Source: Clostridia bacterium (GTDB lineage: Bacteria; Bacillota; Clostridia; Oscillospirales; Acutalibacteraceae). From it: a DNA stretch of 40,899 bases. The notes beneath the pieces are model-generated. The model was given only the letters and a program-made list of their open reading frames with translations. It was not told the DNA's origin and did no database searches. Position 1 is the stretch's first letter. Every line of letters begins with the position of its first letter. The stretch is taken from the NCBI GenBank assembly GCA_017437005.1, contig JAFSBZ010000032.1, positions 1-40,899 on the forward strand, read 5' to 3'. Positions 7,238-25,015 of this stretch are shown here, one piece after another. The position numbers were made by a program, and so were the translations under genes.

Positions 7238-7239
7238 GT

Positions 7240-7869
7240 ATGAAGCAGTTTTGGCAAGAGCTTAAATATGCGTTTTATGTTATTGTTCATCCTTTTGACG
7301 GTTTTTGGTGTATTAAGCGAGAGGGTAAGGGTAGCATTAGGGTAGCTAATTTTATTGTTTTTATGTTGCTTATTACTTCGGTGCTTTCAAAACAATGCAC
7401 TTCATTCGCTTTTAATCTTACCGATAAAGATGCCTTGAACATCTTTAAAGAATGTTTGTTGGTGATTTTACCAATAGCACTTTGGTGTGTTGCGGGGTGG
7501 AGCATTACAACACTTATGGACGGCGAGGGAAAGCCGCGAGATATTTACATTTCTTGCGTGTATTCAACACTTCCGTTAATATTGCTCAATTTACCACTGG
7601 TGCCCATAACACATATGCTTTCATTAGATGAGGGCTCGTTATATGCGTTGGTGCAGGGCGCCGCAATTTTATGGACAGCATTTTTACTGTTTATTGCAAC
7701 AATGACGGTGCATCAGTACACCATAGGCAAGACAATACTTATGATTCTGCTTATGATATTAGGTATGGCACTTATAATATTTTTAGTTTTACTGTTTTTT
7801 GTTTTAATTCAGCAGTTAATCAATTTTATCTACGTTATGTATAAAGAATTTTCATTAAGATTTATGTAA
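7240..7869 (+). CDS. Yip1-family multi-pass membrane protein
   Basis: 209 aa, ATG at 7240 two bases after the preceding stop; its ribosome binding site (GGAAGGATGGG) lies in the end of the upstream gene. The N-terminal YAFYVIVHPFDGFWCIKREGKGS segment is typical of bacterial Yip1-domain proteins found beside sugar importers. About five hydrophobic helices follow (VANFIVFMLLITSV to MILLMILGMALIIFLVLLFFVL). It sits between the NHL protein and the DUF5696 lipoprotein, forming an accessory block between two permease sets. Role unknown; probably assembly or regulation of the transport complex. Confidence 0.7.
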   Translation: MKQFWQELKYAFYVIVHPFDGFWCIKREGKGSIRVANFIVFMLLITSVLSKQCTSFAFNLTDKDALNIFKECLLVILPIALWCVAGWSITTLMDGEGKPRDIYISCVYSTLPLILLNLPLVPITHMLSLDEGSLYALVQGAAILWTAFLLFIATMTVHQYTIGKTILMILLMILGMALIIFLVLLFFVLIQQLINFIYVMYKEFSLRFM

Positions 7870-7883
7870 AGGAGGAATATGTT

Positions 7884-10424
7884 ATGAAACGTTGGCTTGT
7901 GTTAGTCTTGTGCTTATGTATGGTGACGGCAACAGCTTGCGCTAAAACAGATACCTCCACAGTTAAAAGCGACATTGATTTAGATACCGTATCCGATTCT
8001 TTTGGTGAAGAACTAACCGCGCAAGAGGGTTTTGTTTCGGTAGCATCAAACGCTAATTTAGAGCTGTTTATAAACCCTCAAACTACTGAAATTGCAGTTA
8101 AGGATATTGCATCAGATTATACGTGGTATTCAAATCCTCAGAGAGATACCGACTGTAAAGAACAAATAACCCTTACATATTGCGACCAGTCTAATAATAT
8201 GAGCGGTATGAACAGCTACGACGATGCCGTTGCCGAGGGGCAGTTCGCTTTTCAAAAGATAGAAAACGGTGTAAGAGTAGTATACGAAATTGGCAAAAAG
8301 GTAAAGGTATTTGCAATACCTCAGGTTATATCAGCAACTACCTTTGAAGAAAAAATATTAAGCAAGTTAAGTGAAGAAGATGCCGAGACGGTTTTAATGC
8401 GTTACGAGCTCTATTCAATGAATGACGAACGTCTTACCGAAGAAGAAAAACAAACGCTTAAGAAAACCTATAAGCGCTTTGAAAAGGAAGATATTTATGT
8501 TCGCGCTGAGTCATTACCTGAGTTTGCATTAAAGCGACTTGAAACCACAATTGAGCCTACGGGATACAGTCTTGACGATTTAGCCGAGGACAATGAATAT
8601 CACGGCTTAACAGCGCCAGAAACAAGTGATATTTTCACGGTAGCTGTCGAATACCAATTAGACGGAGCCTCGCTTACCGTTACGGCTCCTATAGAGTCAA
8701 TTCAGTCACCTGCGCATCTCACACTTACCAATTTACAGCTTTTGCGTTATTTTGGCGCAGCCGATAATAACGCGCAGGGTTATATGCTTGTTCCAGACGG
8801 TTCAGGCGCGATTATTAATCTAAACAGCAATAAGGGTGATATGAGCCCCTATATATTGCAAATATACGGCGAAAATATGGCGGATTACAACAGAACAAGC
8901 GAGCCTATTGCACATTTGCCTATATACGCGCTTAAAAACGGCAATAATTCGTATCTTGGAATAATCGAGAGTGGTGACGCTGCTGCAACTATTCAAGCCG
9001 AGGTTTACAGTGAGACAAATAAATACAACCATATTTTTGCTTCGTTTGAAATAAGACGTGGTGAAAAGCTCACCACAAATTACTCTACAGGCTTAGGCTC
9101 TGATACAAGTGACCTATATGTATTCCAAAAGAACCCGCTTTCCGAGGATATAAGCGTTCGCTATTTGTTCCAAAACGGTGAAAACGCAAACTATGTCGGA
9201 ATGGCAACGCAATACCGTGAGCACTTGATAAAGCAGGGAATTTTAAGTAATTACACCCGCGATAACGGTTACGGTATGACGGTGGATATATTAGGTGCTG
9301 TTGAATATCCCGATTCACTGTTTGGTATACCGATTTCTCGCAGTAAGGCGTTAACAACCTTTTCACAAACGCAAGAAATTTTAAAGGCACTTAACGATAA
9401 AGGCATTACAAATGCCGATGTTAGATTGCTTGGTTGGGCAAATCAAGGTTTGCAAAGCGGTACCAACAAAAAGTTAAAGCCGGTAAACAATTTAGGCGGC
9501 AAAAAGGATTTGAACGCTTTGCTGCAAACGGCACAGTCTTTGGGTTATAACATTTATCCCGATATTGATATTCAGTTCGCTTACCGCAACACAATGTTTG
9601 ACAATTACACAACGCTTCTTGATTCACCAAAGGATATTTTAGGTGAGTCGTGGTTAAAATCACAAAAAACCGTTACAACTATGGTTGATGATAAGTCAAT
9701 ATTCGTTGTAAGACCAACGCTTTACGGTGAATATACCGATTCAATTTCTAAAAAGCTCAAAAAATTAGGCTTTAGCGGCGTGTCTACATCGGAATTGGGT
9801 TACACATTATATGCTGACTACAGCAGTAAGCATACTGCCGACCGCAGTGTCGCAGCTAAAATGGTGAGTGACTCTATAAACGAGTTTAAAAATCAGGGCT
9901 TTAAAACCGTTGTTGAGCAGGGTAATTTATATGCTATTAAGGGTGCTGACGCTATTGTTGATATGCCTCTTAATTCGGCATCAAAATATTATCTTGACTG
10001 CGATGTGCCATTTTTTGCTACCGTGCTTCACGGCTATGTTTCGTATTCAGGTGAAGCGCTTAATATGGCGGCGGACAACACGCAAAACTTCTTGCGCGCT
10101 TTGGAATATGGCGCCGAGCTGCATTACACCTGGATGTATGAGCAAAACAATGCCTTGCGCGAAATAGATACTGATTATTACGGCGTGTGTTGGTCGGGCT
10201 CGTTTGATTTGGCAACCGAGCAATACGTTAATGCTAAGGAACTGTTAGAGCAAGTAATTGATGCCACAATAGTTAATCATCAAATGATAGCTGAAAATGT
10301 ATATTGCACAACCTATTCAAACGGAATAAAAATTTTTGTTAATTACGGCACACAAGCCTACAATTCCGACGGCGTTAATATTTCACCGCAGGGCTATGCT
10401 ATGCAAAAGGAGGCGGCGAAATGA
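7884..10424 (+). CDS. DUF5696-type lipoprotein of a sugar-transport cluster
   Basis: 846 aa, ATG 7884 preceded by AAAGGAGGAA. A short signal peptide ends in TATAC, making Cys19 the likely lipid anchor (the lipobox is imperfect, with Ala at -3). The early part (about 40-270) is beta-rich and acidic. The diagnostic YMLVPDGSGAIINL segment lies around residue 295, and the C-terminal half has alternating strands and helices resembling a TIM-barrel or glycosidase-like fold (GWANQG..., YPDIDIQF, YTWMYEQNNA). Its place next to NHL and Yip1 proteins matches how I know DUF5696 genes to occur, but the biochemical role is unknown. It overlaps the next permease by 4 nt (ATGA), so translation is coupled. 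Confidence 0.7.
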   Translation: MKRWLVLVLCLCMVTATACAKTDTSTVKSDIDLDTVSDSFGEELTAQEGFVSVASNANLELFINPQTTEIAVKDIASDYTWYSNPQRDTDCKEQITLTYCDQSNNMSGMNSYDDAVAEGQFAFQKIENGVRVVYEIGKKVKVFAIPQVISATTFEEKILSKLSEEDAETVLMRYELYSMNDERLTEEEKQTLKKTYKRFEKEDIYVRAESLPEFALKRLETTIEPTGYSLDDLAEDNEYHGLTAPETSDIFTVAVEYQLDGASLTVTAPIESIQSPAHLTLTNLQLLRYFGAADNNAQGYMLVPDGSGAIINLNSNKGDMSPYILQIYGENMADYNRTSEPIAHLPIYALKNGNNSYLGIIESGDAAATIQAEVYSETNKYNHIFASFEIRRGEKLTTNYSTGLGSDTSDLYVFQKNPLSEDISVRYLFQNGENANYVGMATQYREHLIKQGILSNYTRDNGYGMTVDILGAVEYPDSLFGIPISRSKALTTFSQTQEILKALNDKGITNADVRLLGWANQGLQSGTNKKLKPVNNLGGKKDLNALLQTAQSLGYNIYPDIDIQFAYRNTMFDNYTTLLDSPKDILGESWLKSQKTVTTMVDDKSIFVVRPTLYGEYTDSISKKLKKLGFSGVSTSELGYTLYADYSSKHTADRSVAAKMVSDSINEFKNQGFKTVVEQGNLYAIKGADAIVDMPLNSASKYYLDCDVPFFATVLHGYVSYSGEALNMAADNTQNFLRALEYGAELHYTWMYEQNNALREIDTDYYGVCWSGSFDLATEQYVNAKELLEQVIDATIVNHQMIAENVYCTTYSNGIKIFVNYGTQAYNSDGVNISPQGYAMQKEAAK

Positions 10425-11335
10425 AAAATAAAAAAAGAACCTTAGCTCAGCAAAATGAAAGAGCAGGCTTGCTGTATTCACTACCGTTTATAATAGGCTT
10501 TGTCTGCTTTACGCTGTTTCCTGTAATACAGTCTTTTTTACTTAGCTTTCATACTGTTTCAGCCTCCGCAAACGGTATGGTGATGCGTTTTGAGAGTTGG
10601 GGAAATTATCACAGATTACTGTTTGAAAACGCCTCTTATGTCAGAGATTTATTATTACCGTCTTTAAAAGAATTGGCGATCAATTTTCCTTGTATTTTAA
10701 TTTTCAGCTTTTTCATTGCGGTAATGCTTAATCATCAGTTCCGTGGCAGAACATTTTTTAGAGTAATATTTTTCTTACCCGTTGTAGTAAGCTCGGGTGT
10801 TATATTGCTTGTGCAAGATAATCAACTGCAAACAAATATGCTAAGCGGAATCACAGGAAGTGCTTCGGGTGGCGGCGGAATATCGCAGTTTACCGATACT
10901 GTAACCGATCTGCTTGAAGATTTTGCCGTTGGTGAGTGGCTAATTACATTTGTTACAAGCGCAGTTGACAGAATATATGATATTGTCACATCTTCGGGTA
11001 TACAAATTCTCATATATCTTGCGGGATTGCAGACAATATCGCCCTCATTATATGAAGCATCAAGTATTGAGGGCGCTACTGGATGGGAAAATTTTTGGAA
11101 AATTACCTTCCCGATGATAAGCCCCATGATTTTAGTAAATGCCGTATATACTATCGTTGATATTATGGGCGGATTAAACAATAATCTCGTTAAGCAAATT
11201 TATAATACGTCATTTGTAATTGGCGATTACGGCTACGGCTCGGCAATGGGTTGGATATATTTCCTAATTATAGGATTAGTACTGTTGCTGTTTTTAGGCG
11301 TGGCTTCGCGTATGGTTTATTATGAAGATAGATAG
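10421..11335 (+). CDS. ABC sugar transporter permease, second system (MalF/LplB type)
   Basis: 304 aa, ATG 10421 overlapping the previous stop (ATGA), with AAAAGGAGG inside the upstream gene. The first helix reads LLYSLPFIIGFVCFTLFPVI, and the EAA loop is EASSIEGATGWENFWKITFP near residue 210. A hydrophilic, Gly/Ser-rich insertion around residues 140-160 (SGITGSASGGGGISQ) enlarges the loop between the middle helices, as in some MalF-type permeases. Partner of the following permease. Confidence 0.88.
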   Translation: MKNKKRTLAQQNERAGLLYSLPFIIGFVCFTLFPVIQSFLLSFHTVSASANGMVMRFESWGNYHRLLFENASYVRDLLLPSLKELAINFPCILIFSFFIAVMLNHQFRGRTFFRVIFFLPVVVSSGVILLVQDNQLQTNMLSGITGSASGGGGISQFTDTVTDLLEDFAVGEWLITFVTSAVDRIYDIVTSSGIQILIYLAGLQTISPSLYEASSIEGATGWENFWKITFPMISPMILVNAVYTIVDIMGGLNNNLVKQIYNTSFVIGDYGYGSAMGWIYFLIIGLVLLLFLGVASRMVYYEDR

Positions 11336-11349
11336 AAAGGTGGGATAAT

Positions 11350-12303
11350 ATGCTTGCGCAAATTAAAAAGAAGAGCTTTAGCATACAAAAAAAGAATATT
11401 GTTTCTTTTATATGGAACGTATTCAGATATGTTTTGTTTGCGGGTCTTGCGTTTGTTATTTTGCAGCCTTTAATTGTTAAGCTGTCTTCCTCTTTTAAGA
11501 GTATTTACGATTTATATGATTCCACCGTTATCTTTTTTCCTAAACAGGCAACACTTTATAACTATGAACGTGTTATAGAGTATTACGAATACGGCAAACG
11601 CTTTTTTAAGTCGGTTTTGCTTTGCGGAATGTCTGGTCTGCTGCAAACAGTAAGCTGCACATTGGTGGCTTACGGTTTGGCAAGATTTAAGTTTAGGGGA
11701 AGAAATCTTATTTTCGGTATGGCGATATTTACGCTGATTATTCCCACACAAACTGTTTTGCTACCGTTGTTTTTGCAGTTTAAATATTTTAGCCCCATAA
11801 CATTTTTTACGTTAGGCTTTAATCTGCAGGGAACCGATTTAATAGGTACGCCAATACCGCTGATTTTACTATCTTGCACGGCAAACGGGTTTAAAAACGG
11901 CCTATACATATTTATGTTAAGACAGTATTTTAAAAACCTGCCCGTAGCACTCGAAGAGGCGGCTTATATAGACGGCTGCAACCGTTTTACAACATTTTGG
12001 TATATTATGCTACCAGGTGCTAAAACCATGATGATAACAATATTCTTGTTCTCGTTTGTATGGCAGTGGAACGATTATTTCTACTCAATGATTTTAATGC
12101 CCGGTATGGATGTATTTACCACGGTATTCAGCAAGGTGGGTGAGGCAATAACTCGCAGTGATGGTGCGATGCGCGACACGATGCAAATGATGCTTTATGA
12201 CAGCGCAGCGATGATATTGCACATTATTCCTCTTGTTGTATTATATATTTTCACGCAAAAGTTCTTTGTCCAAAGTATTGAAAGGAGTGGTATAGTTGGA
12301 TAA
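11350..12303 (+). CDS. ABC sugar transporter permease, second system (MalG/LplC type)
   Basis: 317 aa, ATG 11350 with GAAAGGTGGG upstream. About six helices are visible; the EAA loop reads EEAAYIDGCNRFTTFWYIMLP around residues 197-217. A conserved FSFVWQWNDYFYSMI segment follows, and the protein ends in a typical short tail. The stop overlaps the start of the next binding-protein gene by 8 nt, so permease and binding protein are translationally coupled. Confidence 0.88.
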   Translation: MLAQIKKKSFSIQKKNIVSFIWNVFRYVLFAGLAFVILQPLIVKLSSSFKSIYDLYDSTVIFFPKQATLYNYERVIEYYEYGKRFFKSVLLCGMSGLLQTVSCTLVAYGLARFKFRGRNLIFGMAIFTLIIPTQTVLLPLFLQFKYFSPITFFTLGFNLQGTDLIGTPIPLILLSCTANGFKNGLYIFMLRQYFKNLPVALEEAAYIDGCNRFTTFWYIMLPGAKTMMITIFLFSFVWQWNDYFYSMILMPGMDVFTTVFSKVGEAITRSDGAMRDTMQMMLYDSAAMILHIIPLVVLYIFTQKFFVQSIERSGIVG

Positions 12304-13876
12304 AAGACAGGTAAAATTTTCAGCAAATATTTTTCTAAAGGTTTTGTGTATGGTGCTGGTGGCAGTACTATGCATAGGCTCGGCGGCAGGTTGCCGAAAG
12401 GTTAACCCATCAACTGATTTGAGCAGTTCGGGTTCTACAGGTGTGGTTGGTTCAATCGATGCTGATGTGACCAGCAGTGACGAAAGCACACCTACCGATG
12501 CTACTGAATCAACTGACTCTACTCAGTCGGATGGCAACAATTCAAGCACAACAACCCCAAGCGGTGACGGCGGCAGCACACAGACACCGCCGACTGTAGC
12601 GCCAACCGATGAAGATGTTGACACAGGCATTGTCACCGACCTTAAGGGACGCACCATCAAAATATTCTCTTACGGATATACAAAAGAATGGGCAACAAAC
12701 ACCGCAGTAGGTCGTTTGCAAGAGCAAACCTTTGACAAGGTTGAAAAAGAGCTTAACTGTAAAATTGAGATTTTAAGCGGTCCTGCTGACACCGATTTTG
12801 ATCCGATTTTCACATCTATCCTTGCGGGTGACCCGATTGTTGACATTGTTAACACAGCAGGTCCTCACACATTGGCAAAGCCAATTACCACAAATCTTTA
12901 TATGGATCTTGACCAGTTTGAAGTATTTAACTGGAAAGAGTCTAAGTGGGATAACGACACAATGGAAATTGCCGAGTTCGGCGGCAAACAGTATGTTGCG
13001 TTTATTGACCTTATAGGTGATAGCGCAGCGCTAATGAACAATGCTATGTTCTTTAACAAGCGCCTGGTAAAAGAAGCAGGCTACAACCCAGATGATATTT
13101 ACAAGTGGCAAGAAAACGGCACATGGACTTGGGCAAAATTCAAGGAAGTGGCTTCTAAAATTTCAAAGCTTGATCCCGGCAACATTTACGGTACAGGCGG
13201 CAACGGCGCAGTTCTTTATGAAAACTTGGTAGTTTCTAACGGAACAGACTACTTCCTTAGAAGCGGTGATAGCGTTGTATTTAACGGCGGCAATTCAGCA
13301 GCTATGGAAGCTATGAAATTCTATCTTGAACTTCATCAAGAAGGAATCATGAGCGATGATGATACCAGCGCAAATGCAACTCAGTTTATTGCTGGTAAAA
13401 TCGGTTTCTTACCTGATGTATTAGAGCGTTTGCAGTATTCAGACACATACGGTAAAATGAAGGACGACTACGGTGTCGTAATGATACCAAAGGGTCCTCA
13501 GGCAAAAGACTATGTATCAATGTTCAACTGGTACGGTGGTTACGCTATTCCTACAGGAACTAAAAATGCCAACGAGGTTGCAGCTGTGCTTAACGCTATC
13601 TGCGACTCACCTTATGGCAGCACAGCAGCCGCAAACAAGGCAGCAATAGTAGCACAAGAAACCTATGTTCGTGACGAGCAGTCATTGGCAGTATTTGATA
13701 TGGTTAAGACCCGTACATTTACATCTGCTCAGTGGCTCGGCGAGCCCGTTCGTACACAGTGGTTAGCTTTACTTCCTGACCTTAAGGCAGGCAAGCTTAC
13801 CGTAGCAAATGCCGTTTCAGAGCATAAAGACGAATATGCTGATATGCTTAAAAACACTTGGGCATTTAAGTTTTAA
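12296..13876 (+). CDS. Solute-binding lipoprotein of the second sugar importer
   Basis: 526 aa from TTG at 12296, which follows AAAGGAG (12281-12287) by 8 nt; no in-frame ATG fits better. The lipobox SAAGC places the lipid anchor at Cys33. A Ser/Thr/Asp-rich linker runs to about residue 95, then the ligand-binding domain begins with GRTIKIFSYGYTKEW. It contains the family pattern ILAGDPIVDIV and a C-terminal FNWYGGYAIP segment. It is distinct from the first, larger binding protein, suggesting that the two importers take different products of the same glycan. Confidence 0.87.
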   Translation: MDKRQVKFSANIFLKVLCMVLVAVLCIGSAAGCRKVNPSTDLSSSGSTGVVGSIDADVTSSDESTPTDATESTDSTQSDGNNSSTTTPSGDGGSTQTPPTVAPTDEDVDTGIVTDLKGRTIKIFSYGYTKEWATNTAVGRLQEQTFDKVEKELNCKIEILSGPADTDFDPIFTSILAGDPIVDIVNTAGPHTLAKPITTNLYMDLDQFEVFNWKESKWDNDTMEIAEFGGKQYVAFIDLIGDSAALMNNAMFFNKRLVKEAGYNPDDIYKWQENGTWTWAKFKEVASKISKLDPGNIYGTGGNGAVLYENLVVSNGTDYFLRSGDSVVFNGGNSAAMEAMKFYLELHQEGIMSDDDTSANATQFIAGKIGFLPDVLERLQYSDTYGKMKDDYGVVMIPKGPQAKDYVSMFNWYGGYAIPTGTKNANEVAAVLNAICDSPYGSTAAANKAAIVAQETYVRDEQSLAVFDMVKTRTFTSAQWLGEPVRTQWLALLPDLKAGKLTVANAVSEHKDEYADMLKNTWAFKF

Positions 13877-13899
13877 TATTTTTTGAGGAGGAATTATTC

Positions 13900-16800
13900 T
13901 TGAAACGAATATTATCAATCCTATTGGCAATATCATTGGTTGCAGGAATGCTGTGCGGTAACCTTACAGTTATGGCTACAACCGACAGCGTTAAAGTTGA
14001 GAAGGTGGATTTTTACGATTATACTGCGTCTTGGGGCAGAAGTGCTTTTCAGATTATGATCGATTTGTCAAAAGACTTCACAACGTCTGCAGCAGGTAGT
14101 TATATTACTGCAGATTATGCTGATTATATAACTATTAACGGCATAAATATGGCGGACAGAAATAACAATCCCGCTGATTATGGCGTTCAGGCTGACTACT
14201 GTTATCCAAACGGTTCTATAGCTGTTCAACCATACCCCACTACCGATGTAATTACACTCACAATGCAGGGTGGCGGTATCGGTAACATTGATGTTACAAC
14301 ATCAAACACAATAGTTATTTCAAAGGATATGCCAATGGCAGACGGTACTACATTGGGCAGAAATATTGCTTTAAGTTATGACCCCGCAACAAACGCTTGG
14401 AGCGAAGGCGTTACTGTTGAAAAGGTTGATTTTTATGATTATACCGAGGCTTGGGGCAGAAGTGCTTTTCAGATTATGATTGATTTGTCAAAAGACTTCA
14501 CAACATCTGCAGCAGGTAGCTATATAACAGCTGATTATGCTGATTATATTACTATCAATGGCGTAAATATGGCTGATAGAAATAACAATCCTGCCGATTT
14601 CGGTGTTCAGGCTGATTATTGTTATCCTAACGGCTCTATTGCTGTGCAGCCATATCCTACCACTGATGTTATTACCCTTACAATGCAGGGCGGTGGCGAA
14701 GGAAATATTAATCCGAGCGCATCAAACATAATTATTCTTGATGCTGCTTTGCCTATGGCAGACGGCACAACACTCGGCCGTGAAATCGTTTTGATTTTTG
14801 ACCCCGAAACACAAACTTGGGCAGAGGGTGAAAAACCTTCGGATGTTACTGCTGCGGTAACTCAGTTTGCCGATTATACTGAAGCTTGGGGCAGAAGCGC
14901 ATTCCAAATTTATATTGATTTTTCTAAAGATTTCACAACTGCAGCTCAGTATGCTTATATCACCGAGAATTATGCTTCGTACATAACCGTTAACGGTATA
15001 AATATGGCGGATCGTAACAATAGTCCTGCTGACTTAGGTGTACAGTCTGATTACTGCTATCCAAACGGTGCGGTTTCTGTTCAGCCTGATACACCTGACG
15101 TGATGATTCTTCAGATGCAGGGTGGCGGTAACGGCAACCTTGATTTTAGCACAGTTAACTACATTACACTAAGCAAGCTTATGCCAATGGCAGACGGCAG
15201 CTATTTAGGTCGTGACATCACTTTGGTATTTGACCCCGAAACACAATCATGGGCTGAGGGCGAGGTTCCCGTAAGTGATGCATCAGCTGAGGTTATTGGC
15301 TTCTTTGACCAAACAGCATCTTGGGGCAGAAGTGCATATCAGCTTTTCGTTAAGCTTTCTGATGCTTATACCGATGCTGCTCAGTATTCATATCTTACTG
15401 CTGATTTTGCACAATATATAACAATTAACGGTGCTAATATGTCAGACCGTAATGCAAATCCTGCAAAATACCGCGTAGATTCAGACTTCCACTATGATAA
15501 CGGTCCTATTGCAGTTCAAAATGACACAGGCGACATTATGATATTTACAATGCAAGGCGGCGGTGAGGGTATGCTTGATGCCTCTGCGGTAAATGCTATC
15601 ACAATTAGCCAATTCCTACCACTTTTAAACGGTGGTACATTAGGTCGCGACATTACCTTGGTATATGACCCCGCAACACAGACTTGGGCAGAGGGTGAAG
15701 CACCCGACTTTGACCTTGACCTTGACGACGGCAGCGATGATAACGACGAGCCGGAACAACCGCCACAGGTAACCGATCCTATAAACGTAAATGTTCTTTC
15801 TACCGACGTTAATGACTTTAGTTCATCACGCGGTATGCCTGATGAAACCTTCTTCCAGATTAATATCGTGTTTGAAGAAGCATTTACTAACGAAGCAGTT
15901 TGGTCTTACTTTACCGAAACACTCGGTCAGTATATTGAAATCAACGGCGTTAATATGAAAGACCGTTATGAAAACCCTGCTGATTATAACATTGGCGAAA
16001 TCCCAGAGGATTTCTATGGCGGCAAGGGTGTAGCTATTCAAAACGGCTCAAAGAGTCAGCTTACTATATTACTTATAGGTGGCGGCGACGGTAATATTGT
16101 CCTTAGTGAAAAGAACACCTTGGTTATTAAAGCAGGCTTCCCGTTTGTTAACGGAATATTGGAAAATGACATTGTTATGGAATCTATTCCTACCGAAAAC
16201 ACCTACAGCAGTTGGAATGTTACCAGCAGCGGCGGTAAGTCATACAAACTTTTGGATGACGAATGGGTACGCGATGAGAAAAACCTTATCACCAATTTCT
16301 ACAGTATGTATCATCCTGAGGTTGTTTATGTAAAAGAATGGGATGACGGTGAAAACTATCCTTACCTTATGTATTTCTTTGGTTGGGCATGTAACCAAGA
16401 AAATGATGCTATGGGTACCTATCCCGGTTATCCTGGCGGCGACGCTATCTTTATGGCGCGCGCAAAATCGGTTGAAGGTCCTTGGGAGGTTTATGCCGTA
16501 GACCGCGAAACCGGTGAAAATTATTGGGATACCGAGCAAAAACCAATAACCTGGGAGCCTGTTGTTACCTGTCAGGATAAGTGGTATGACAACTGGCACG
16601 TGGGTGATCCTTCAGTTGTTTATGAAGACGGCAAGTTCTATATGGCTTACTCTGCAATGGGTACCGACCAAGATGGTATTTTCAATACAAAAGAAAACGA
16701 TACCGATGGCGTAGCAGCCTGCATTATGGGTGCTACCTCTACCGACGGTATTAACTGGACACAAACCGACGAGCCGTTGCTTATCTGGCAAAATGAAAAA

Positions 16801-17982
16801 GGCTTTGACGAAGTAAACGATATCAATAATTATTTAGGCGGATATCAGCGCCCAAGCCTTATGCTTGAAGACGGCAAGTGGCGTATGTGGTTCGACCTCA
16901 GATACAACGAATACGGCTATGCTGAGTGTGATGGCGACTTCACAATGGCAGAGGATTGGACCGAGGTTTATGGCGGTGACAATCGTTTTGTTGACGAAAA
17001 CGGTATGCTCTTTAATATCGTTGATATGGATGTAATCAAGGTTGACGGTAAGTACTATATGTATGGTGACCCATATATGAACTGGTACGGTATTGTTGAT
17101 GACGCGATTCCTTATTATCCGTCTGATCCAAGCAACTGGTCCAATAGACAGATTGTTGAATTTGTTTCAGAAGACGGTATTACTTGGAAGCTTAGCGGAT
17201 ATTTCCGTCCCGACTCCGATACCGATGCAAACCAAATTCCGCAAATTTTCTTTGATGAAAAGGGTAACCGTTTGTGCTTGTTCTATGCAACACAACGCGG
17301 TATGCAGGGTGACGGCAGCTATGACTGGCGTTGGAACAACATACGTATGATGTATAAACGTCTTGGCTCATCGGCTATTGATCGTACCGAAAGCGAAGAA
17401 ATAACCGTTACAATTAAAGATGGCATTGCTGACCTTAGTAAAGATTTAGGTCTTGAAGCAGGAAAAGCAATGGAGATTACCTTGCAGTTCTCTGATTCTA
17501 TCACTACTGCTGCTGACGGAACAATAATTACCGATGAATTAAGTAGCTTTATTACTATTAACGGTGTTACCTTAGATCGTCGTATGGAAGGCGACCGCAA
17601 ACTTAAAATGGATACTATCCCCGATGAAATTTATGATGGCTACAATGTAGTTATCACAAGTGAAAACGGCGGCAAAACTATTAAAGTATTGCTTTTAGGC
17701 GGTGGCGAGGGTAACCTTGTAGCCGATGCAGCTAATACAATTTTAATTAGCGAAGATCTTCCAATCAAAAACGGTAACGTTCTTGGTAAAGGGGCTAACT
17801 TCTACTATAATCCTGCTACTGATAAGTGGGAGGCTACTGAGGCTTCAAATAATGACGAAACCAAGAGCCCTGATACATCAGATTCTACAATGCCGTTCGC
17901 GGTTGCAGTAGCCAGTGTTATAGCATCTGCTGCAGTAATCTTCACAGGCAAAAAGAAAATAGCAAAAAATAGTAAAGCCTAA
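13900..17982 (+). CDS. Giant surface protein: six copies of a ~140-aa module around a GH43-like propeller
   Basis: 1360 aa from TTG 13900; GAGGAGG (13885-13891) sits 8 nt upstream. A signal peptide of about 27 residues is followed by five module copies at about residues 33-172, 173-317, 318-462, 463-605 and 627-767, an acidic DxD linker near 605-625, a catalytic-type region at about 790-1165, and a sixth module at 1166-1312. Modules share WGRSAFQ, YITINGxNMxDR and a GGG-G-N core. The central region has WHVGDPSVVYEDGKFYMAYS and SLMLEDGKWRMWFD, phrases typical of five-bladed GH43/GH32-like enzymes; the exact family is unclear. The tail has SPDTSD (1323-1328), a hydrophobic helix and a KKK-rich end, a degenerate sorting-type anchor. 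It probably binds and trims the glycan on the cell surface. Confidence 0.75.
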   Translation: MKRILSILLAISLVAGMLCGNLTVMATTDSVKVEKVDFYDYTASWGRSAFQIMIDLSKDFTTSAAGSYITADYADYITINGINMADRNNNPADYGVQADYCYPNGSIAVQPYPTTDVITLTMQGGGIGNIDVTTSNTIVISKDMPMADGTTLGRNIALSYDPATNAWSEGVTVEKVDFYDYTEAWGRSAFQIMIDLSKDFTTSAAGSYITADYADYITINGVNMADRNNNPADFGVQADYCYPNGSIAVQPYPTTDVITLTMQGGGEGNINPSASNIIILDAALPMADGTTLGREIVLIFDPETQTWAEGEKPSDVTAAVTQFADYTEAWGRSAFQIYIDFSKDFTTAAQYAYITENYASYITVNGINMADRNNSPADLGVQSDYCYPNGAVSVQPDTPDVMILQMQGGGNGNLDFSTVNYITLSKLMPMADGSYLGRDITLVFDPETQSWAEGEVPVSDASAEVIGFFDQTASWGRSAYQLFVKLSDAYTDAAQYSYLTADFAQYITINGANMSDRNANPAKYRVDSDFHYDNGPIAVQNDTGDIMIFTMQGGGEGMLDASAVNAITISQFLPLLNGGTLGRDITLVYDPATQTWAEGEAPDFDLDLDDGSDDNDEPEQPPQVTDPINVNVLSTDVNDFSSSRGMPDETFFQINIVFEEAFTNEAVWSYFTETLGQYIEINGVNMKDRYENPADYNIGEIPEDFYGGKGVAIQNGSKSQLTILLIGGGDGNIVLSEKNTLVIKAGFPFVNGILENDIVMESIPTENTYSSWNVTSSGGKSYKLLDDEWVRDEKNLITNFYSMYHPEVVYVKEWDDGENYPYLMYFFGWACNQENDAMGTYPGYPGGDAIFMARAKSVEGPWEVYAVDRETGENYWDTEQKPITWEPVVTCQDKWYDNWHVGDPSVVYEDGKFYMAYSAMGTDQDGIFNTKENDTDGVAACIMGATSTDGINWTQTDEPLLIWQNEKGFDEVNDINNYLGGYQRPSLMLEDGKWRMWFDLRYNEYGYAECDGDFTMAEDWTEVYGGDNRFVDENGMLFNIVDMDVIKVDGKYYMYGDPYMNWYGIVDDAIPYYPSDPSNWSNRQIVEFVSEDGITWKLSGYFRPDSDTDANQIPQIFFDEKGNRLCLFYATQRGMQGDGSYDWRWNNIRMMYKRLGSSAIDRTESEEITVTIKDGIADLSKDLGLEAGKAMEITLQFSDSITTAADGTIITDELSSFITINGVTLDRRMEGDRKLKMDTIPDEIYDGYNVVITSENGGKTIKVLLLGGGEGNLVADAANTILISEDLPIKNGNVLGKGANFYYNPATDKWEATEASNNDETKSPDTSDSTMPFAVAVASVIASAAVIFTGKKKIAKNSKA
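13996..15720 (+). repeat. tandem coding repeats (copies 1-4 of the surface module)
   Basis: The anchor codons for WGRS fall at 14032, 14452, 14887 and 15322, giving periods of 420, 435 and 435 bp. Copies 1 and 2 differ at only 4 of the first 94 residues, and their DNA differs mostly at third positions. Copies 3 and 4 are more diverged. Copy 5 (about 15778-16200) and copy 6 (about 17395-17835) are distant relatives flanking the catalytic-type region. Internal tandem duplication is the obvious origin. Confidence 0.85.
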
Positions 17983-17990
17983 AATGTTAA

Positions 17991-18026
17991 TTAGCAGGCA
18001 GCATTTTAGCTGCCTGCTAAGTTTTA
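17991..18026 (+). terminator. terminator-like hairpin after the surface-protein gene
   Basis: TTAGCAGGCAGC (17991-18002) and GCTGCCTGCTAA (18009-18020) form a perfect 12-bp stem with a 6-nt loop, followed by GTTTTA. The U-tract is short, so termination may be partial. It would lower expression of the enzyme genes relative to the transport and surface genes, because only 21 bp remain before the rhamnosidase start. Confidence 0.6.
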
Positions 18027-18047
18027 CTTGAAAGAATAGGTATAACA

Positions 18048-20651
18048 ATGACAAACAAAATACAAATTTTTTGTGAGTATCAAAGTACGCCGCTCGGAAT
18101 ACAAAATTCTAATCCGCGCTTTAGTTGGCGCATAAATGATACGACTGCCGGTATGCAAAGAGCATATAGACTTACGGTATTTAACGAAGACGGCAATATG
18201 TATTGGGACAGCGGTGAGGTTCAAAGCTGTCGTTCTGTCTGTGTAATATACGAAGGCCCATTGTTAAAAGAAAAAACTCGATACAATTGGCAGGTTACCG
18301 TAACCGATGTAAACGGCATACAATATGTATCAGAGCCGTCGTGGTTTGAAACTGCAATTTTTGAGGAAAAAACCTGGCGAGGACAATGGATAGGCGAAGC
18401 ATCTCACACATACGGTCAGTCCCCACGTTTTAGACGTGAATTTACTCTATCTGAAGATACAAACCGCGCTCGGCTTTATATAAGTGGTTTGGGTTATTAT
18501 ATTGCTTACCTTAACGGACAAAGAATTGGTGATAGGCAGTTAGAGCCCGGAATGACCGATTATCGTTATCGCGTGTTGTATAGCGTTTATGACGTTACCG
18601 ATTTATTAAAAAAGGGCAAAAATGTTTTGGCTGTAGAGCTTGGCGAAGGTTGGTACGGTCATCAGCATGAGTGTATACAGCGTTTTATGGGGCATCAGCC
18701 GCTTTGGAATAATACCCCTAAGCTGCGTTATGATTTGGATATTTTATCTAATGATAATAAAGAAATTAATATATGCAGTATGGCAGATACTGACCGTTAT
18801 GGGCTTGGTCCAATTATTGAAAACAGCATATATGACGGCGAAAAATATGATGCTCGTCTGGATGTGCCTGATTGGAATATGGGCGAAGAGCCAAATGGTT
18901 TTTTGCCGTCGGTCGCTGTTGAAGCGCCAACCGGTAAAATGGTGGCACAGCAATGCCCGCCAATCAAAATTGCCGAAAAATTTTTGCCGCAGTCAATAAC
19001 TAAAATTGATAAAAATCATACACTTTATGATTTCGGGCAAAATATTTCGGGTTGGGTACATATGCGTTGCACAGGTGCGCGTGGTTCAAGTATAACCTTT
19101 AAATATTCTGAGGTAGCAACCGATAATCGTGCTGACCAAAGAAATTTGCGTTCGGCTAAATCTGCTGACACTTATATTTTGTCGGGTAACGGTGAAGAAG
19201 AATATCAAACTCGATTTACATATCACGGCTTCCGATTTGTTGAGGCAGTAGTTGAGGGTGACGTAAACATTGATTTTATTGAAGCTCAGATGGTATGCTC
19301 TAAGGTAAATGCCACAGGCGGTTTTTCTTGTGACAACAAGGTTATAAACGACACGCAAACAGCAATGATTTGGACAGAACGCGACAATATGCACAGCATA
19401 CCAACCGATTGTCCGCAAAGAGATGAACGTCAGGCATGGCTTAATGATGTTACAGCAAGATGCTCTGCCGCGCTTTATAATTTTGACATTTTGCCGTTTT
19501 ATGAAAAATGGCTCGATGATATATTAGATGCACAGGACGAAAGCGGTGCAATTCCTGATACCGCTCCTATGGTATACGGTATGCGTCCCGCAGTGCATGT
19601 TTCAAGTGTATTCATTTTATTACCGTTGTTACTATATCGTCAATATGGTGATTACACAATTATGAAACGCCTGTATCCCGCTATGAAAAAGTATCTTGAG
19701 CGCAAAGCAGCCGATAGAGGTGAAGACGGTCTTTTAGGTGGTTTATATTACGGCGAGTGGGCGCCGCCCGCTTCAGAATGTATGGATGACGGCGCTTGGA
19801 GTGCCACACCCGCTAATATTCCACCTGGGCTTGTTGCTACAAGCTTTATTTACGCCGACTGCAACTGGATGAAAGAAATCGCAACAATATTGGGATATAT
19901 TGACGATATAGCCGAATACGAGCGTATTGCTGACGAGGTTCGCAGTGCGGTTAACGGTAAATATCTAAAAGACGGATATTATGACAAGGGTGTACAAACA
20001 AGTCAAATTGTACCGCTTTGTTTTGAAATGGTTCCCGAACAATATGTTGAGTCAACATTTTCTACTTTAATAAAAGATTTAGAAAAGAGAAATTATTTGT
20101 TGACAACGGGTAATCAGGCATCAAAGCTTTTATTTGATGTGTTGTCACGCTACGGTAGAAACGATATAGCTTTTCGCGTAGCAACAGCAACAGAATATCC
20201 TAGCCTTGGCTATATGCTTAAAAATGATGCTACAACCCTTTGGGAAAGATGGGAATATTTAATAGGCGACGGTATGAATTCACACAATCATCCAATGCTT
20301 GGTTCGTACTCATTTTGGTTTTATAGCGACATTGGTGGAATTAGACGTGACGAATGTTTGTGTGACAAAGAGATAAAAATATCACCTGATATCACTTTAC
20401 CTATAGCTTCCGCACAAGCATCCACACTATGTGGTAAGGGCCGGATTAAAACTGCTTGGCAAAAGAGCGAAGACCAAGTTAAGTTGCAAATTTCAGTGCC
20501 GTGGAACACAGAGGCTGTGTTGTCATTACCGCGATTTGCTTCTACAACACAAGGATGGCAATTCGCATCAGATTGCACTCAAAAGCGTCTTTCAAGTGGA
20601 GAATATAAACTTGTTTTTGACGGAGCAAACTTTATAGAGGAGGCGCTTTGA
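18048..20651 (+). CDS. Alpha-L-rhamnosidase, GH78
   Basis: 867 aa, ATG 18048; the ribosome binding site (AAAGAATAGG) is weak. There is no signal peptide, so the enzyme is cytoplasmic and acts on imported oligosaccharides or glycosides, hydrolysing terminal alpha-L-rhamnose. It has an N-terminal beta-sandwich (SWRINDTT..., RYNWQVTVTD), then a second domain with YIAYLNGQRIGDRQLEPG. The (alpha/alpha)6 catalytic domain carries the GH78 signature DCPQRDER (residues about 454-461), which includes the known acidic catalytic positions. The second signature is TLWERWEYL with NSHNHPMLGSYSFW (about 728-755), where the base glutamate sits in related enzymes. The stop overlaps the next start (TGATG). Confidence 0.92.
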   Translation: MTNKIQIFCEYQSTPLGIQNSNPRFSWRINDTTAGMQRAYRLTVFNEDGNMYWDSGEVQSCRSVCVIYEGPLLKEKTRYNWQVTVTDVNGIQYVSEPSWFETAIFEEKTWRGQWIGEASHTYGQSPRFRREFTLSEDTNRARLYISGLGYYIAYLNGQRIGDRQLEPGMTDYRYRVLYSVYDVTDLLKKGKNVLAVELGEGWYGHQHECIQRFMGHQPLWNNTPKLRYDLDILSNDNKEINICSMADTDRYGLGPIIENSIYDGEKYDARLDVPDWNMGEEPNGFLPSVAVEAPTGKMVAQQCPPIKIAEKFLPQSITKIDKNHTLYDFGQNISGWVHMRCTGARGSSITFKYSEVATDNRADQRNLRSAKSADTYILSGNGEEEYQTRFTYHGFRFVEAVVEGDVNIDFIEAQMVCSKVNATGGFSCDNKVINDTQTAMIWTERDNMHSIPTDCPQRDERQAWLNDVTARCSAALYNFDILPFYEKWLDDILDAQDESGAIPDTAPMVYGMRPAVHVSSVFILLPLLLYRQYGDYTIMKRLYPAMKKYLERKAADRGEDGLLGGLYYGEWAPPASECMDDGAWSATPANIPPGLVATSFIYADCNWMKEIATILGYIDDIAEYERIADEVRSAVNGKYLKDGYYDKGVQTSQIVPLCFEMVPEQYVESTFSTLIKDLEKRNYLLTTGNQASKLLFDVLSRYGRNDIAFRVATATEYPSLGYMLKNDATTLWERWEYLIGDGMNSHNHPMLGSYSFWFYSDIGGIRRDECLCDKEIKISPDITLPIASAQASTLCGKGRIKTAWQKSEDQVKLQISVPWNTEAVLSLPRFASTTQGWQFASDCTQKRLSSGEYKLVFDGANFIEEAL

Positions 20652-21895
20652 TGGAATACATTACCGAACAGTTACAAACAAAGGTGTCGGGCGAGTATGA
20701 TGTGGTGGTTGTAGGCGCAGGACCTGCGGGTGTGTGCGCAGCCATTTCAGCCGCGCGCAACGGTGCTAAAACCTTACTCGTAGAGCGTTACGGCTTTTTA
20801 GGCGGTATGTGGAGTGCCGGTCTTATAATCCCACTGTTTGATTATGAAAATAAATCGTATGTCGTTACCGAAATCGTTAACGAGATCAAAAATAGGAACG
20901 GTTGGGGTGGCTTTTGCAACATTGCATTTGACTTTGAGGTAATGAAGCAGGTATTAGACGAGCTCATCACCGATAGTGGCTGTCACTTGCTACTTCATAC
21001 GTTTTTTGCGGGCGCATATGTTGAAGACGATACTGTAAAAGGCATATTCGTGCAAAACAAAAGCGGTCGCAGTCTTATTCGCGCAAAGGTTGTTATTGAT
21101 TGCACAGGTGACGGTGACGTTGCCGCTGATGCAGGTGTTCCGTTTACGGTTGGTCGCGGCAAGGATAATCTTTGTCAACCTGCCACCTGTATGTTTATGC
21201 TCTCTGGTGTGAATTTTGTGCAGCAGACACCGTATCACGTGCATGATTTAGTGGTTGAGGCATCCGAAAAGTGTGGGGTTCCGTTCCCGTTTTCTTACAA
21301 ACGTCCGTTTGTATTGCCAATACCAAACTCTGATCGCTGTGTTGTAATGTGGAGCCATATAAGAGGTACAGTTCCAATGGACGCCGAAGGCTTTAGCGAA
21401 ACCGAAATGGCTTCGCGCAGAGAGATACATCAAATTGTGGACTATCTGCAAAAATATGTTCCCACCTTTAAGGATGCGCAGCTTGTATCTATAGCGGCGC
21501 AAACAGGTGTGCGAGAGAGTCGTCATATACACGGTAAATATACCTTGACTTGCGAAGACTGCGTAACAGGTGCTAAATTTGATGATGCTATTTGCGATGC
21601 AAGTTTTTCGATCGATTTACACATACCTGATACCAACGAGCAGGACAATATCAAGGTAGAGGAGCCATATCAAATTCCATATCGTTGCTTACTGCCTATT
21701 AACCGAGATGGCTTGTTGGTTGCAGGCAGATGTCTTTCGGGCACTTATGAAAGCAGCGGCTCATACCGTGTTACAGGCAACTGTATGGCAACAGGTCAAG
21801 CGGCGGGTGTTGCCGCGGCATTGGCTACAAAATATTCAATATCTGTGTGTCAGATTGAGCCCCAAGAAATACGTGATATAATTGGTATGAAATAA
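20651..21895 (+). CDS. FAD-dependent oxidoreductase (FAD_oxidored family)
   Basis: 414 aa from ATG 20651, in a TGATG overlap with the rhamnosidase stop and with AGAGGAGG (20636-20643) at good spacing; a TTG at 20648 is also in frame. The N-terminal Rossmann motif VVVVGAGPAGVCAA and the ribose-binding VER at the end of the second strand mark FAD binding. GGMWSAGLI, CTGDGDVAADAG and a C-terminal LLVAGRCLSGT...GQAAGVAAAL are typical of the PF12831-type group. The substrate is unknown; the coupling to a rhamnosidase suggests oxidation of a sugar or of the aglycone released by it, but that is inference. Confidence 0.8.
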   Translation: MEYITEQLQTKVSGEYDVVVVGAGPAGVCAAISAARNGAKTLLVERYGFLGGMWSAGLIIPLFDYENKSYVVTEIVNEIKNRNGWGGFCNIAFDFEVMKQVLDELITDSGCHLLLHTFFAGAYVEDDTVKGIFVQNKSGRSLIRAKVVIDCTGDGDVAADAGVPFTVGRGKDNLCQPATCMFMLSGVNFVQQTPYHVHDLVVEASEKCGVPFPFSYKRPFVLPIPNSDRCVVMWSHIRGTVPMDAEGFSETEMASRREIHQIVDYLQKYVPTFKDAQLVSIAAQTGVRESRHIHGKYTLTCEDCVTGAKFDDAICDASFSIDLHIPDTNEQDNIKVEEPYQIPYRCLLPINRDGLLVAGRCLSGTYESSGSYRVTGNCMATGQAAGVAAALATKYSISVCQIEPQEIRDIIGMK

Positions 21896-21914
21896 TCTAA
21901 AAGGAGAATTTATT

Positions 21915-22487
21915 ATGAAATTAGTTAAAGATAAAAAATTAGTTGTAGGAGCAGACTTTGCGGGTTACCCATTAAAAGAAGCAGTTGTTGCTCACTTAAA
22001 GGCAAAGGGCTGGGATATTTTAGATATGGGCGTTAAAGCCGATAGTGATCCTGATGATACCGATTTAATGTTCCACCGTGTAGGCTTGCGTGTAGGCGCT
22101 ATGATTTCTGAGGGCGAATATGAGCGCGCACTTCTTTTCTGTGGCACAGGTATGGGTATTCACATCGCAGCAAGCAAATGCCCTCACGTTCACGCAGGTG
22201 TTGTAGAGAGCGTTCCTGCCGCACTGCGTGCAATTACGGGCAACGGTGTTAACGTGCTTACAATGGGTGCTTTCTATGTTGCTCCCGCAATGGGTTGCGA
22301 TATTGCCGACGCTTATCTTAATGCTGAGCTCGGTAGTGGTTACGAATGGTGGCATAATTTTTACGAGTTCCACAAGCTTGCTATTGACGAGTTAGAAGCA
22401 TTTGATTATGAAGAATATAAGAAAAACGGCTTTAAGGTTAACAAGCTTGGTGATTTCCCGTTAAAGCTTGAAACAAAACCCGAATAA
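21915..22487 (+). CDS. RpiB/LacA/LacB-type sugar-phosphate isomerase with altered active site
   Basis: 190 aa, ATG 21915 with AAAGGAG upstream. The fold signature is clear: VVGADFAGYPLKEAV at the N-terminus and FCGTGMGIHIAASK around residues 74-87, which carries the catalytic cysteine of the family. Two usual features differ: the His after the first Asp (GADHAG) is Phe here, and the HDxxSA segment before the NVL strand reads ESVPAALRAITGNGVNVL. At 190 aa it is longer than RpiB (about 145-150) because of a C-terminal extension rich in aromatic and acidic residues. It probably isomerises a sugar other than ribose 5-phosphate, perhaps a product of this pathway. Confidence 0.8.
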   Translation: MKLVKDKKLVVGADFAGYPLKEAVVAHLKAKGWDILDMGVKADSDPDDTDLMFHRVGLRVGAMISEGEYERALLFCGTGMGIHIAASKCPHVHAGVVESVPAALRAITGNGVNVLTMGAFYVAPAMGCDIADAYLNAELGSGYEWWHNFYEFHKLAIDELEAFDYEEYKKNGFKVNKLGDFPLKLETKPE

Positions 22488-22495
22488 TCAGTTTG

Positions 22496-23779
22496 ATGAA
22501 CAAAAACATTTTTGACCGATTTTTGTCAGCGGAGCCGCATGTCGAATATCATTCCGATTATAATCCGCACAGCAATCCTTCTGCCGATAAAAATGAATGG
22601 TCTAATATAATGGCTCTTACCTATGATTCGGCTACAATTAATGGACAAAAAACCAAGGTATTTGCCTATATAGGATTTCCTGACGGAGCATCACAATTAA
22701 ACAAGGTTCCTGCCGTTGTGTTAGTTCACGGCGGCACGGGACACCCCTATGCAGAATGGATAAAATTGTGGAATGACCGTGGGTATGCCGCAATTGCAAT
22801 GGATAATACGGGATATTTTCCGTCAGAAAAAGGCAAGGGTATTGCGGGTCGCGAGTTAGAGGAGCAGGGCTTATGGCATTACGGTCTTTATGGTGATTTC
22901 TTGCAAGATGGTTATGTTAACGCGCCCGATAACGATAATGTCCAAAACGCAGCTGAGCCACTTGAGAAGCAGTGGCTATATCACGCAATTGCGGATACAA
23001 TAATCGCGCATAAAATATTAGCTAATGATGACCGTGTTGATAGTAAAAAAATTGGTATAAGCGGTATTTCGTGGGGCGGTGTAATCACATCGCTTGCCAT
23101 AGGTTATGACACCGATTATGCTTTTGCAATATCGATTTACGGTTCGGCATATTTAGATGAAGGTCACGGCTGGATGGGACCAATTTTTTCCGAACAAAAT
23201 GCCAAAAGGTTATGGTCGGCAGCCGACAGGCTACACAATGTTAAATTTCCGATTTGTTGGCTTTGCTGGGCAGAGGATGCACCTTTCTCCTTAAACTCAA
23301 ACAGCAAATCATATATTGCCACAATGAAGTCGGGTTCGGTGCTTAACACCAAAGTCAATTGGGGGCATTGTCATAGTTGGGGTTGGAATGTACCCGACAG
23401 CTATATCTTTGCCGATGCTGTTATTGGCAGGCGCCAATCCATTACCACTATCAAGAAAGAACCACTTTTGCAAAAAGTGGCTGATGGCAGCTATAAAATA
23501 GTGTTAGATGTTTTACCCGATATCGACACTGTTTCTTTAACGGCTGAGGCACACTATATTACTGCCGATTTATCATACAGTAGTAAATGTGTTGGTGAAC
23601 AGGCAACAATTGACCAAATTTGGCAAACTAAAGATTGCAGTGTCGCTGATAATAAAAATGTTACTGCTTTTCTTCCCAAAGAGGCTGTTGAGTTTTTTGT
23701 TTCTATAAAAACCGAAACTAATAGAGATATTTATCAAATCAGTTCTAGGTTAATCAATTTGAAAAATAATAAAATTTAG
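22496..23779 (+). CDS. Alpha/beta hydrolase, acetylxylan-esterase/dienelactone-hydrolase-like
   Basis: 427 aa from ATG 22496, 8 nt after the isomerase stop; a TTG at 22493 is also in frame. No clear Shine-Dalgarno site is visible, so translation probably depends on coupling. No signal peptide. VVLVHGGTGHPYAEW (near residue 72) forms the oxyanion region. GISGISWGG (about 189-197) holds the nucleophilic Ser. CWAEDAP (about 257-263) may supply the acid and NWGHCHSWGW (about 286-295) the His. A C-terminal beta-rich domain of about 110 residues follows. It likely removes acyl groups from the imported sugar in the cytoplasm; peptidase activity cannot be excluded. Confidence 0.75.
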   Translation: MNKNIFDRFLSAEPHVEYHSDYNPHSNPSADKNEWSNIMALTYDSATINGQKTKVFAYIGFPDGASQLNKVPAVVLVHGGTGHPYAEWIKLWNDRGYAAIAMDNTGYFPSEKGKGIAGRELEEQGLWHYGLYGDFLQDGYVNAPDNDNVQNAAEPLEKQWLYHAIADTIIAHKILANDDRVDSKKIGISGISWGGVITSLAIGYDTDYAFAISIYGSAYLDEGHGWMGPIFSEQNAKRLWSAADRLHNVKFPICWLCWAEDAPFSLNSNSKSYIATMKSGSVLNTKVNWGHCHSWGWNVPDSYIFADAVIGRRQSITTIKKEPLLQKVADGSYKIVLDVLPDIDTVSLTAEAHYITADLSYSSKCVGEQATIDQIWQTKDCSVADNKNVTAFLPKEAVEFFVSIKTETNRDIYQISSRLINLKNNKI

Positions 23780-23823
23780 GTTATATTAATTGTGTAAAGA
23801 AATTTACAGTGAGGTGTTTGTTT

Positions 23824-24639
23824 TTGGATAATGTTTTATTTTCGCATTTAGAAAAGGTGCAACCGGTGTTGTTTTTGGGTGACTTTACCGAATGTGAAAA
23901 AGATTGGGGATACCACAATATTCGTCCAAGCTACAATAAATTATACTATGTTACCGAAGGCGAGGCATATATAAATATCGAAGGAAAAGAATATGTCGCT
24001 CATCCGGGACAACTGTTTTTGTTGCCTTGTAACTCCAAGCAAACATACCATCATACCGAGGCAAAGCATTTGGTTAAATACTGGATTCACTGTTCCTTTA
24101 ACTGTGGTGAAAAAGATTTGTTAGAAATGTTGCAGCTTCCACACTATATTGAGGTCACTTCACCCGAATATGTTGAGAAGTTATTTGAAAAACTATTGGA
24201 AGGCTTGAATGATACATCAGTAACAGGAAAGCTTTATCAAAAAAGCTGTTTGTTAGAATTGCTTGCATATTACTTTGATCACGTTGAAGAAATTCGCAAG
24301 GATTATTTCCGCGATGAGCGTATAATGAGCGTTCTGAAATACATTGACCAAAATTATCAAAGACGTCTTACCATACAAGAACTCAGTGATGTGGTGCATC
24401 TTCATCCTAACTATTTTATTAATTTATTTCACGATGTTGTAGATATGACACCTATGGAATATGTTAATAATGTGCGCATTAATCGCGCAAAAGAGTTGAT
24501 GCAAAAGGCAGTTCACAAAATTCCAATTAACGAAGTTGCAAGTCAAATAGGATTTACCGATGTGCATTATTTCTCGCGACTATTTAAGAAAAAGACAGGC
24601 TACACCCCAACCGAATATATGGACACATTGTTTTATTAA
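23824..24639 (+). CDS. AraC-family transcriptional regulator
   Basis: 271 aa from TTG 23824, which lies 7 nt after GAGGTG (23811-23816); an upstream in-frame GTG at 23809 is part of that site. The N-terminal cupin-like sensor contains YYVTEGEAYINIEGKEY and HPGQLFLLPCN. The C-terminal double helix-turn-helix contains LTIQELSDVVHLHPNYFINLF and IPINEVASQIGFTDVHYFSRLF, ending in the usual KKKTGYTPTEY. It is the last gene of the locus and probably senses a sugar intermediate and activates the operon, possibly through the repeats at 876-917. Confidence 0.9.
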   Translation: MDNVLFSHLEKVQPVLFLGDFTECEKDWGYHNIRPSYNKLYYVTEGEAYINIEGKEYVAHPGQLFLLPCNSKQTYHHTEAKHLVKYWIHCSFNCGEKDLLEMLQLPHYIEVTSPEYVEKLFEKLLEGLNDTSVTGKLYQKSCLLELLAYYFDHVEEIRKDYFRDERIMSVLKYIDQNYQRRLTIQELSDVVHLHPNYFINLFHDVVDMTPMEYVNNVRINRAKELMQKAVHKIPINEVASQIGFTDVHYFSRLFKKKTGYTPTEYMDTLFY

Positions 24640-24696
24640 TTATTATTTTATGATTAAAATTCTGTTTAAATGATTTAGAAGCACTATTTTGTTATA

Positions 24697-24740
24697 TAAT
24701 AATCGCACCCAAGCCAATTATGGCTTAGGTGCGATTATTA
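24697..24740 (+). terminator. terminator-like hairpin after the AraC gene
   Basis: TAATAATCGCACC (24697-24709) and GGTGCGATTATTA (24728-24740) pair perfectly; inside them AAGCC/GGCTT continues the stem after one C/A mismatch, with an AATTAT loop. The stem itself ends in ATTATTA, but no long T-run follows on either strand. It separates the AraC gene from the oppositely oriented tRNA and may act in both directions. Confidence 0.5.
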
Positions 24741-24757
24741 CTTCAAATGTAAAAATC

Positions 24758-24801
24758 AATAAAAAAAGAGAAACCCCGCATAAATACTGAGGTTTCTCTT
24801 T
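24758..24801 (-). terminator. intrinsic terminator of tRNA-Lys
   Basis: On the - strand AAAGAGAAACC (24801-24791) pairs with GGTTTCTCTTT (24775-24765), followed by a T-run to about 24758. The stem begins right at the CCA end of the tRNA, as is common for single tRNA genes. Confidence 0.8.
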
Positions 24802-24876: not shown

Positions 24877-24898
24877 ATTTGCTTTAAACAGCCTAAAT

Positions 24899-24927: not shown

Positions 24928-25015
24928 GCAAAATATTCGTAAAATTTTAACTTTTTTAAAAAAATTATCTTTTCTTGTTCAAATATACAAAATGTACCTT
25001 TTCACCATTTTATTT

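Follow-up and report, generated by a model that had tools for sequence, protein, structure and literature searches.

What does a 1360-residue surface protein do that joins a glycosidase-like region to six copies of a module that matches no Pfam family? The question is raised by an open reading frame (ORF) on the + strand of contig JAFSBZ010000032.1 of a Clostridia bacterium (family Acutalibacteraceae; assembly GCA_017437005.1), which occupies positions 13900-17982 of the 40,899-nucleotide stretch analysed here (the window). An earlier note, made from the letters alone, had described it as an exported protein whose modules might form a new carbohydrate-binding family presenting substrate to a GH43/GH32-like enzyme. 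The ORF and its exported N-terminus were borne out, and the TTG start codon is preceded by a ribosome-binding site. For the protein as a whole, the best explanation, to which we give an even chance of being right, is that of a secreted, wall-anchored, glycan-acting protein with a five-bladed propeller at its centre, in which modules M1-M4 would bind and M5 and M6 would serve as scaffold. A well-known design for capturing and processing plant sugars has thus probably taken on a new sequence form in this gut-type bacterium.

Module homology and predicted fold

The six modules are homologous: in all 15 pairwise comparisons, the real score (153 or more) exceeds those of the 200 shuffles made for that pair (69 at most in any pair). 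Nevertheless, the six copies of the earlier note are not all alike, but consist of four similar ones (M1-M4, mutual identity 53-82%) and two divergent ones, since M5 and M6 share only 28-37% identity with every other copy (28% between the two). These divergent copies directly border the central region, one on each side. At the DNA level, direct repeats run across M1-M4 with a spacing of 420-435 nt, and one 57-nt repeat family also takes in M5, at 516 nt. The motifs WGRSAFQ, YITINGxNMxDR and GGGxGN had been taken as shared by all copies, which holds for GGGxG in all six; GGGxGN is found in five (GGGEGM in M4), WGRSA is confined to M1-M4, and YI[TE][IV]NG.NM.DR occurs in M1-M5, while M6 has FITINGVTLDRR instead.

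The module does go unrecognised by sequence, as had been stated: Pfam scans of each of the six copies singly gave no match at E<=1, and the module profile found no relative among PDB sequences, where the one row returned was a ribosome biogenesis protein (E 0.52). Several other candidates were rejected. When the whole protein was scanned against Pfam, Kelch_1 scored 20.3 bits against a cut-off of 20.1, with no stretch passing singly (best stretch, 14 residues), Fve and the other Kelch models stayed below cut-off, and all of them vanished when the modules were scanned singly; the short DPxTxxW stretch closing M1-M4 is probably the cause of these matches. A tRNA-binding protein match at residues 319-364 in the NCBIfam scan, which covered the whole protein only, was also below cut-off. 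With Pfam Big_5 (PF13205), hhalign pairs the last part of the module over 43 columns at a probability of 18.5%, which is below confidence, versus 0.14-0.21% for three unrelated control sets; Big_5 is absent from the Pfam matches of all six modules and has no match in the genome at E<=0.001, and a relation read from such profiles is suggestive only.

The AlphaFold2 (AF2) model of M1 is confident (predicted local distance difference test score, pLDDT, in Table 1) and predicts an all-beta sandwich that aligns over most of its length with solved immunoglobulin-like (Ig-like) domains. The best fold matches are bacterial alpha-2-macroglobulin (4u48, 4zjg, 5a42), TssM (8q00), SbsC (2ra1) and CopC (6nfq, a match of fold only, sequence membership not being part of the comparison), in domains which we take to be of the MG and Ig-like types. 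None of the Foldseek matches to this model is strong (no E below 0.048, identities of 7-16%), and a viral fold library gave nothing at E<=0.001 (best 0.025). Features that set the module apart from those Ig-like domains are a GGGxG loop and the short helices that follow its ING loop. The novelty claimed for the module is thus supported for its sequence, whereas its fold, by the model, is probably an Ig-like beta-sandwich rather than a new one. In addition, none of the six modules carries GGG-x-[NQDH]-S, the cleavage motif of CBM54 (PMC5132251), as all read GGGxG[NM], without Ser at that site.

In its own genome the module is confined to this ORF. It was found in two of 70 genomes of the genus, own genome included, and at E<=0.001 in the own genome only among 300 of the family and 398 of the phylum, two samples that overlap and neither of which holds the second module-positive genome. 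In a class sample (391 genomes, E<=0.05), 15 other genomes gave weak matches (E 8e-4 to 0.05). The 11 that were translated in the correct frame, a set without L024, L019, L027 and L028, are by eye unrelated proteins (three CapA-like, a flavoprotein, others), and all 15 were counted as chance. Plasmid and phage records gave no module match at E<=1e-3, and neither the module nor the central domain had a relative in viral contigs. The module represents a lineage-specific sequence family, most likely on a common fold.

A contig scan with one peptide pattern returned a single locus, L007 (SVOH01000023.1), in a metagenome-assembled genome (MAG) of Oscillospiraceae; the second module-positive genome of the genus, G693, is probably this same MAG. 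The L007 protein is 96% identical to the ORF product (1309/1364 columns), and positions 12042-22400 of the window are 95.8% identical to the L007 locus across 10.4 kb. Nonsynonymous and synonymous divergence between the two (dN 0.018, dS 0.227) indicate purifying selection, and the acidic linker between M4 and M5 shows an indel and the highest dN. As a separate observation, M2 differs from its L007 counterpart by 2 nt only (dS 0.02), whereas dS is 0.14-0.34 in the centre and the remaining modules; M2 may have undergone recent recombination or conversion.

The central domain and its catalytic positions

The earlier note had called the central region GH43/GH32-like, and the sequence that it quoted, WHVGDPSVVYEDG, is present at residues 899-911. 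Scanned alone against Pfam, the domain matches GH130 at 16.8 bits (cut-off 26), and in the whole-protein NCBIfam scan the centre weakly matches beta-1,2-mannobiose phosphorylase (22.4 bits versus a cut-off of 450). Searches among 382 genomes gave seven non-self matches, five of which were aligned with the centre (alignment A2), leaving out two weaker ones (1.9e-6 and 6.2e-6). The A2 profile matches 9fj8 at 2e-8, and hhalign relates it to GH130 at 95.6% and to GH43 at 92.7%. GH43, GH62, GH32, GH68, GH117 and GH130 are described as sharing a five-bladed propeller (PMC9728383). Five inner-strand-like motifs picked by eye (YHPEVV, GDPSVV, QRPSL, VDMDV and QIPQI, starting at residues 804, 902, 983, 1041 and 1112) line up in all six A2 sequences, as five blades would predict. 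The AF2 model of M5, centre and M6 (residues 626-1310) was built from two near-identical rows and, with a pLDDT of 36.6, neither confirms nor refutes the propeller fold.

A relation to the GH43/GH32/GH117/GH130 propeller superfamily is thus upheld by the profiles. However, the term GH43/GH32-like enzyme is too strong, because the catalytic positions of both GH43 and GH130 are replaced. The catalytic Asp of GH130 (Asp142/Asp104; PMC4599007), which belongs to a DPR motif and is invariant in the comparison set (22/22), is not kept, as it aligns with Arg984, an Arg in all six A2 sequences (16% identity, register uncertain). In GH43, an Asp base, an Asp modulator and a Glu catalyst are located on blades 1, 3 and 4 (PMC4356313); at most one of the three (D903) is kept here, the blade-3 Asp aligning with R984 and the blade-4 Glu with V1041 (P in relatives), at 13% identity and in an uncertain register. 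Likeness to the GH130 mannoside phosphorylases and hydrolases, from which the centre differs by its Arg for Asp, and to GH43, with whose base-carrying strand GDPSVV aligns, is thus a profile match at the superfamily level. Six acidic residues are invariant in A2 (E807, D848, D903, D999, E1033 and D1057) and position 1044 is acidic throughout (D here, E in relatives), making these residues candidate catalytic positions.

The five A2 relatives are open frames of 397-452 residues without modules, whose starts are lipoprotein-like by eye. Ten neighbouring ORFs scanned across their five contigs included three of GH32 on L043 and a pectate-lyase-like one on L042, and gave CotH, a phosphoesterase or nothing on L040, L041 and L044. 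On L043, a second propeller-like protein (3144-4907; sub-cut-off GH130 match, 12.2 bits, E 0.084) directly follows the relative and is followed by the three GH32 ORFs. The central domain would thus represent an unclassified subgroup of a known propeller superfamily, apparently a stand-alone lipoprotein-like protein in other genomes of the class.

The anchoring tail and the operon

Features of a sortase substrate are found at the C-terminus (Table 1), namely a PxT motif, a hydrophobic stretch and a basic tail; the motif reads SPDTS, and the canonical LPXTG is not present in the tail. Since similar PxT[GSA] tails end five other ORFs of the genome (weak matches, E 0.026-0.61) and two sortase matches lie above cut-off, the protein is likely anchored to the cell wall.

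The ORF belongs to a + strand gene run from 1002 to 24639. It is preceded by genes for a solute-binding protein, two permeases, NHL/TPR, Yip1 and DUF5696 proteins, two further permeases and a probable solute-binding protein, the last with a sub-cut-off Mucin match only in Pfam, and followed by those for a GH78-type rhamnosidase, an FAD oxidoreductase, an RpiB-type isomerase, an esterase-like protein and an AraC regulator. Because of the GH78 gene, rhamnose or pectin might be guessed as the substrate of the operon. The first gene (1002-3911) encodes 969 residues, of which only about 584-869 form the solute-binding domain, and more than 500 N-terminal residues have no Pfam family above cut-off. 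The NHL/TPR, Yip1 and DUF5696 proteins are encoded consecutively (5792-10424) inside this ABC sugar-uptake operon.

A consensus scan of 7000-25000 found 19 terminator-like hairpins versus 16.1 expected. The longest of them lies between the ORF and the rhamnosidase gene, in an operon whose genes are closely packed elsewhere, and because it comes after the gene, the ORF may be the end of a transcript. On the - strand, a perfect sigma-70 consensus (24899-24927; 12/12, 17-nt spacer) is directed into the 3' end of the AraC regulator gene.

Table 1. Features of the ORF and its immediate surroundings (positions in the window)
Feature	Positions	Strand	Basis or remark
Putative ATP-binding cassette (ABC) solute-binding lipoprotein	12296..13876	+	Ends 23 nt before the ORF; inferred from look of sequence and position after two permeases
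Ribosome-binding site GAGGAGG	13885..13891	+	Precedes TTG start; read in sequence
Signal peptide, aa 1-26	13900..13977	+	Cleavage after VMA placed by eye, not computed
Module M1, aa 30-170	13987..14409	+	Module alignment; AF2 pLDDT 92.8; best fold matches Ig-like
Module M2, aa 171-312	14410..14835	+	82% identity to M1
Module M3, aa 313-452	14836..15255	+	64% identity to M1
Module M4, aa 453-598	15256..15693	+	54% identity to M1
Acidic linker, aa 599-625	15694..15774	+	Read in translation
Module M5, aa 626-775	15775..16224	+	Divergent copy beside propeller-type domain; 37% identity to M1
GH43/GH130-superfamily propeller-type domain, aa 776-1160	16225..17379	+	Profile relation
Module M6, aa 1161-1312	17380..17835	+	Divergent copy; 30% identity to M1
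Sorting-type tail, aa 1319-1360 (SPDTSD, hydrophobic stretch, KKK)	17854..17979	+	Read in translation
Terminator-like hairpin, 12-pair stem	17991..18020	+	Immediately 3' of gene; consensus scan
Alpha-L-rhamnosidase, GH78-type domains	18048..20651	+	Pfam; downstream neighbour

Possible roles and known counterparts

In the favoured explanation, the protein would be secreted and anchored to the cell wall as the glycan-acting part of a polysaccharide-utilisation operon, and its centre, a five-bladed propeller of the GH43/GH130 superfamily, would most likely cleave or bind a plant-type oligosaccharide. The six modules would be strongly diverged forms of a lineage-specific Ig-like beta-sandwich multiplied by duplication. 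With a C-terminal anchor, the order from the wall outward would be M6, propeller, M5 and M4-M1, the latter outermost. M5 and M6, which bracket the propeller, would most likely act as scaffold, M6 lying between propeller and wall, and the distal M1-M4 would most likely be binding domains that keep substrate or matrix near the centre.

Somewhat less probable is a purely structural role for the six modules, as Ig-like spacers or stiffeners of the stalk type that have no ligand of their own and leave all the work to the propeller. The fold matches to bacterial alpha-2-macroglobulin, SbsC, TssM and CopC domains are in line with this, and none of these domains is known to bind sugar. Moreover, 14 of the 19 invariant module columns hold Gly, Pro, Asn, Asp or Thr. 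A precedent is found in ChiW, where Ig-like domains stand beside catalytic ones and another domain binds (PMC5132251). However, only M6 lies between centre and anchor, while five modules lie beyond the centre, where no stalk is needed; a stalk and nothing more would be expected between the wall and the enzyme, so that a binding role is more likely for M1-M4. They also retain F9, W16, Y39, Y47, Y73 and W138 in common. A bolder version of the binding role, which we consider rather unlikely, is that M1-M4 are the first members of a new carbohydrate-binding family of Ig-like fold and that the centre, its catalytic site rearranged, is a multi-domain member of a new GH family within the GH43/GH130 superfamily, the two together forming a self-contained surface capture-and-cut device. 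Least probable is a role of M1-M4 as an adhesin, with a protein or a surface as target, be it of the host, a feed particle or a neighbouring cell, next to a centre that is lectin-like and catalytically dead. Repeat amplification, the sorting-type tail, the very narrow distribution and the lost GH43 and GH130 catalytic positions fit such a role, but the operon around the gene is one of sugar uptake, including GH78 and ABC permeases, and the many acidic residues invariant in all six sequences of the propeller subgroup suggest a working site.

If M1-M4 do bind, they would make up a new sequence family of Ig-like domains that bind glycans, open to testing together with a propeller subgroup so far unclassified; if the modules are only spacers, the protein is an ordinary glycosidase-like one of the cell surface. 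Nearly absent beyond two sampled genomes, the module is a clean example of a domain that is restricted to one lineage, has a common fold and was multiplied on a single protein. A narrow literature search on wall-anchored Ig-like carbohydrate-binding proteins gave nothing on topic, although publications on the subject may still exist.

Two known systems bear comparison. As described in PMC5132251, ChiW of Paenibacillus, a cell-surface chitinase, is likewise a surface-expressed multi-domain enzyme with Ig-like domains; unlike the protein considered here, it has GH18 catalytic domains, a CBM54 beta-helix and an SLH anchor. By its description in PMC11022575, CbE1Xyn43-l, a GH43-like endo-xylanase of Clostridium boliviensis, also combines a GH43-like domain outside the CAZy families with a non-catalytic domain, although, unlike the central domain described here, it has kept both the base and the acid of GH43 and includes a known CBM6.
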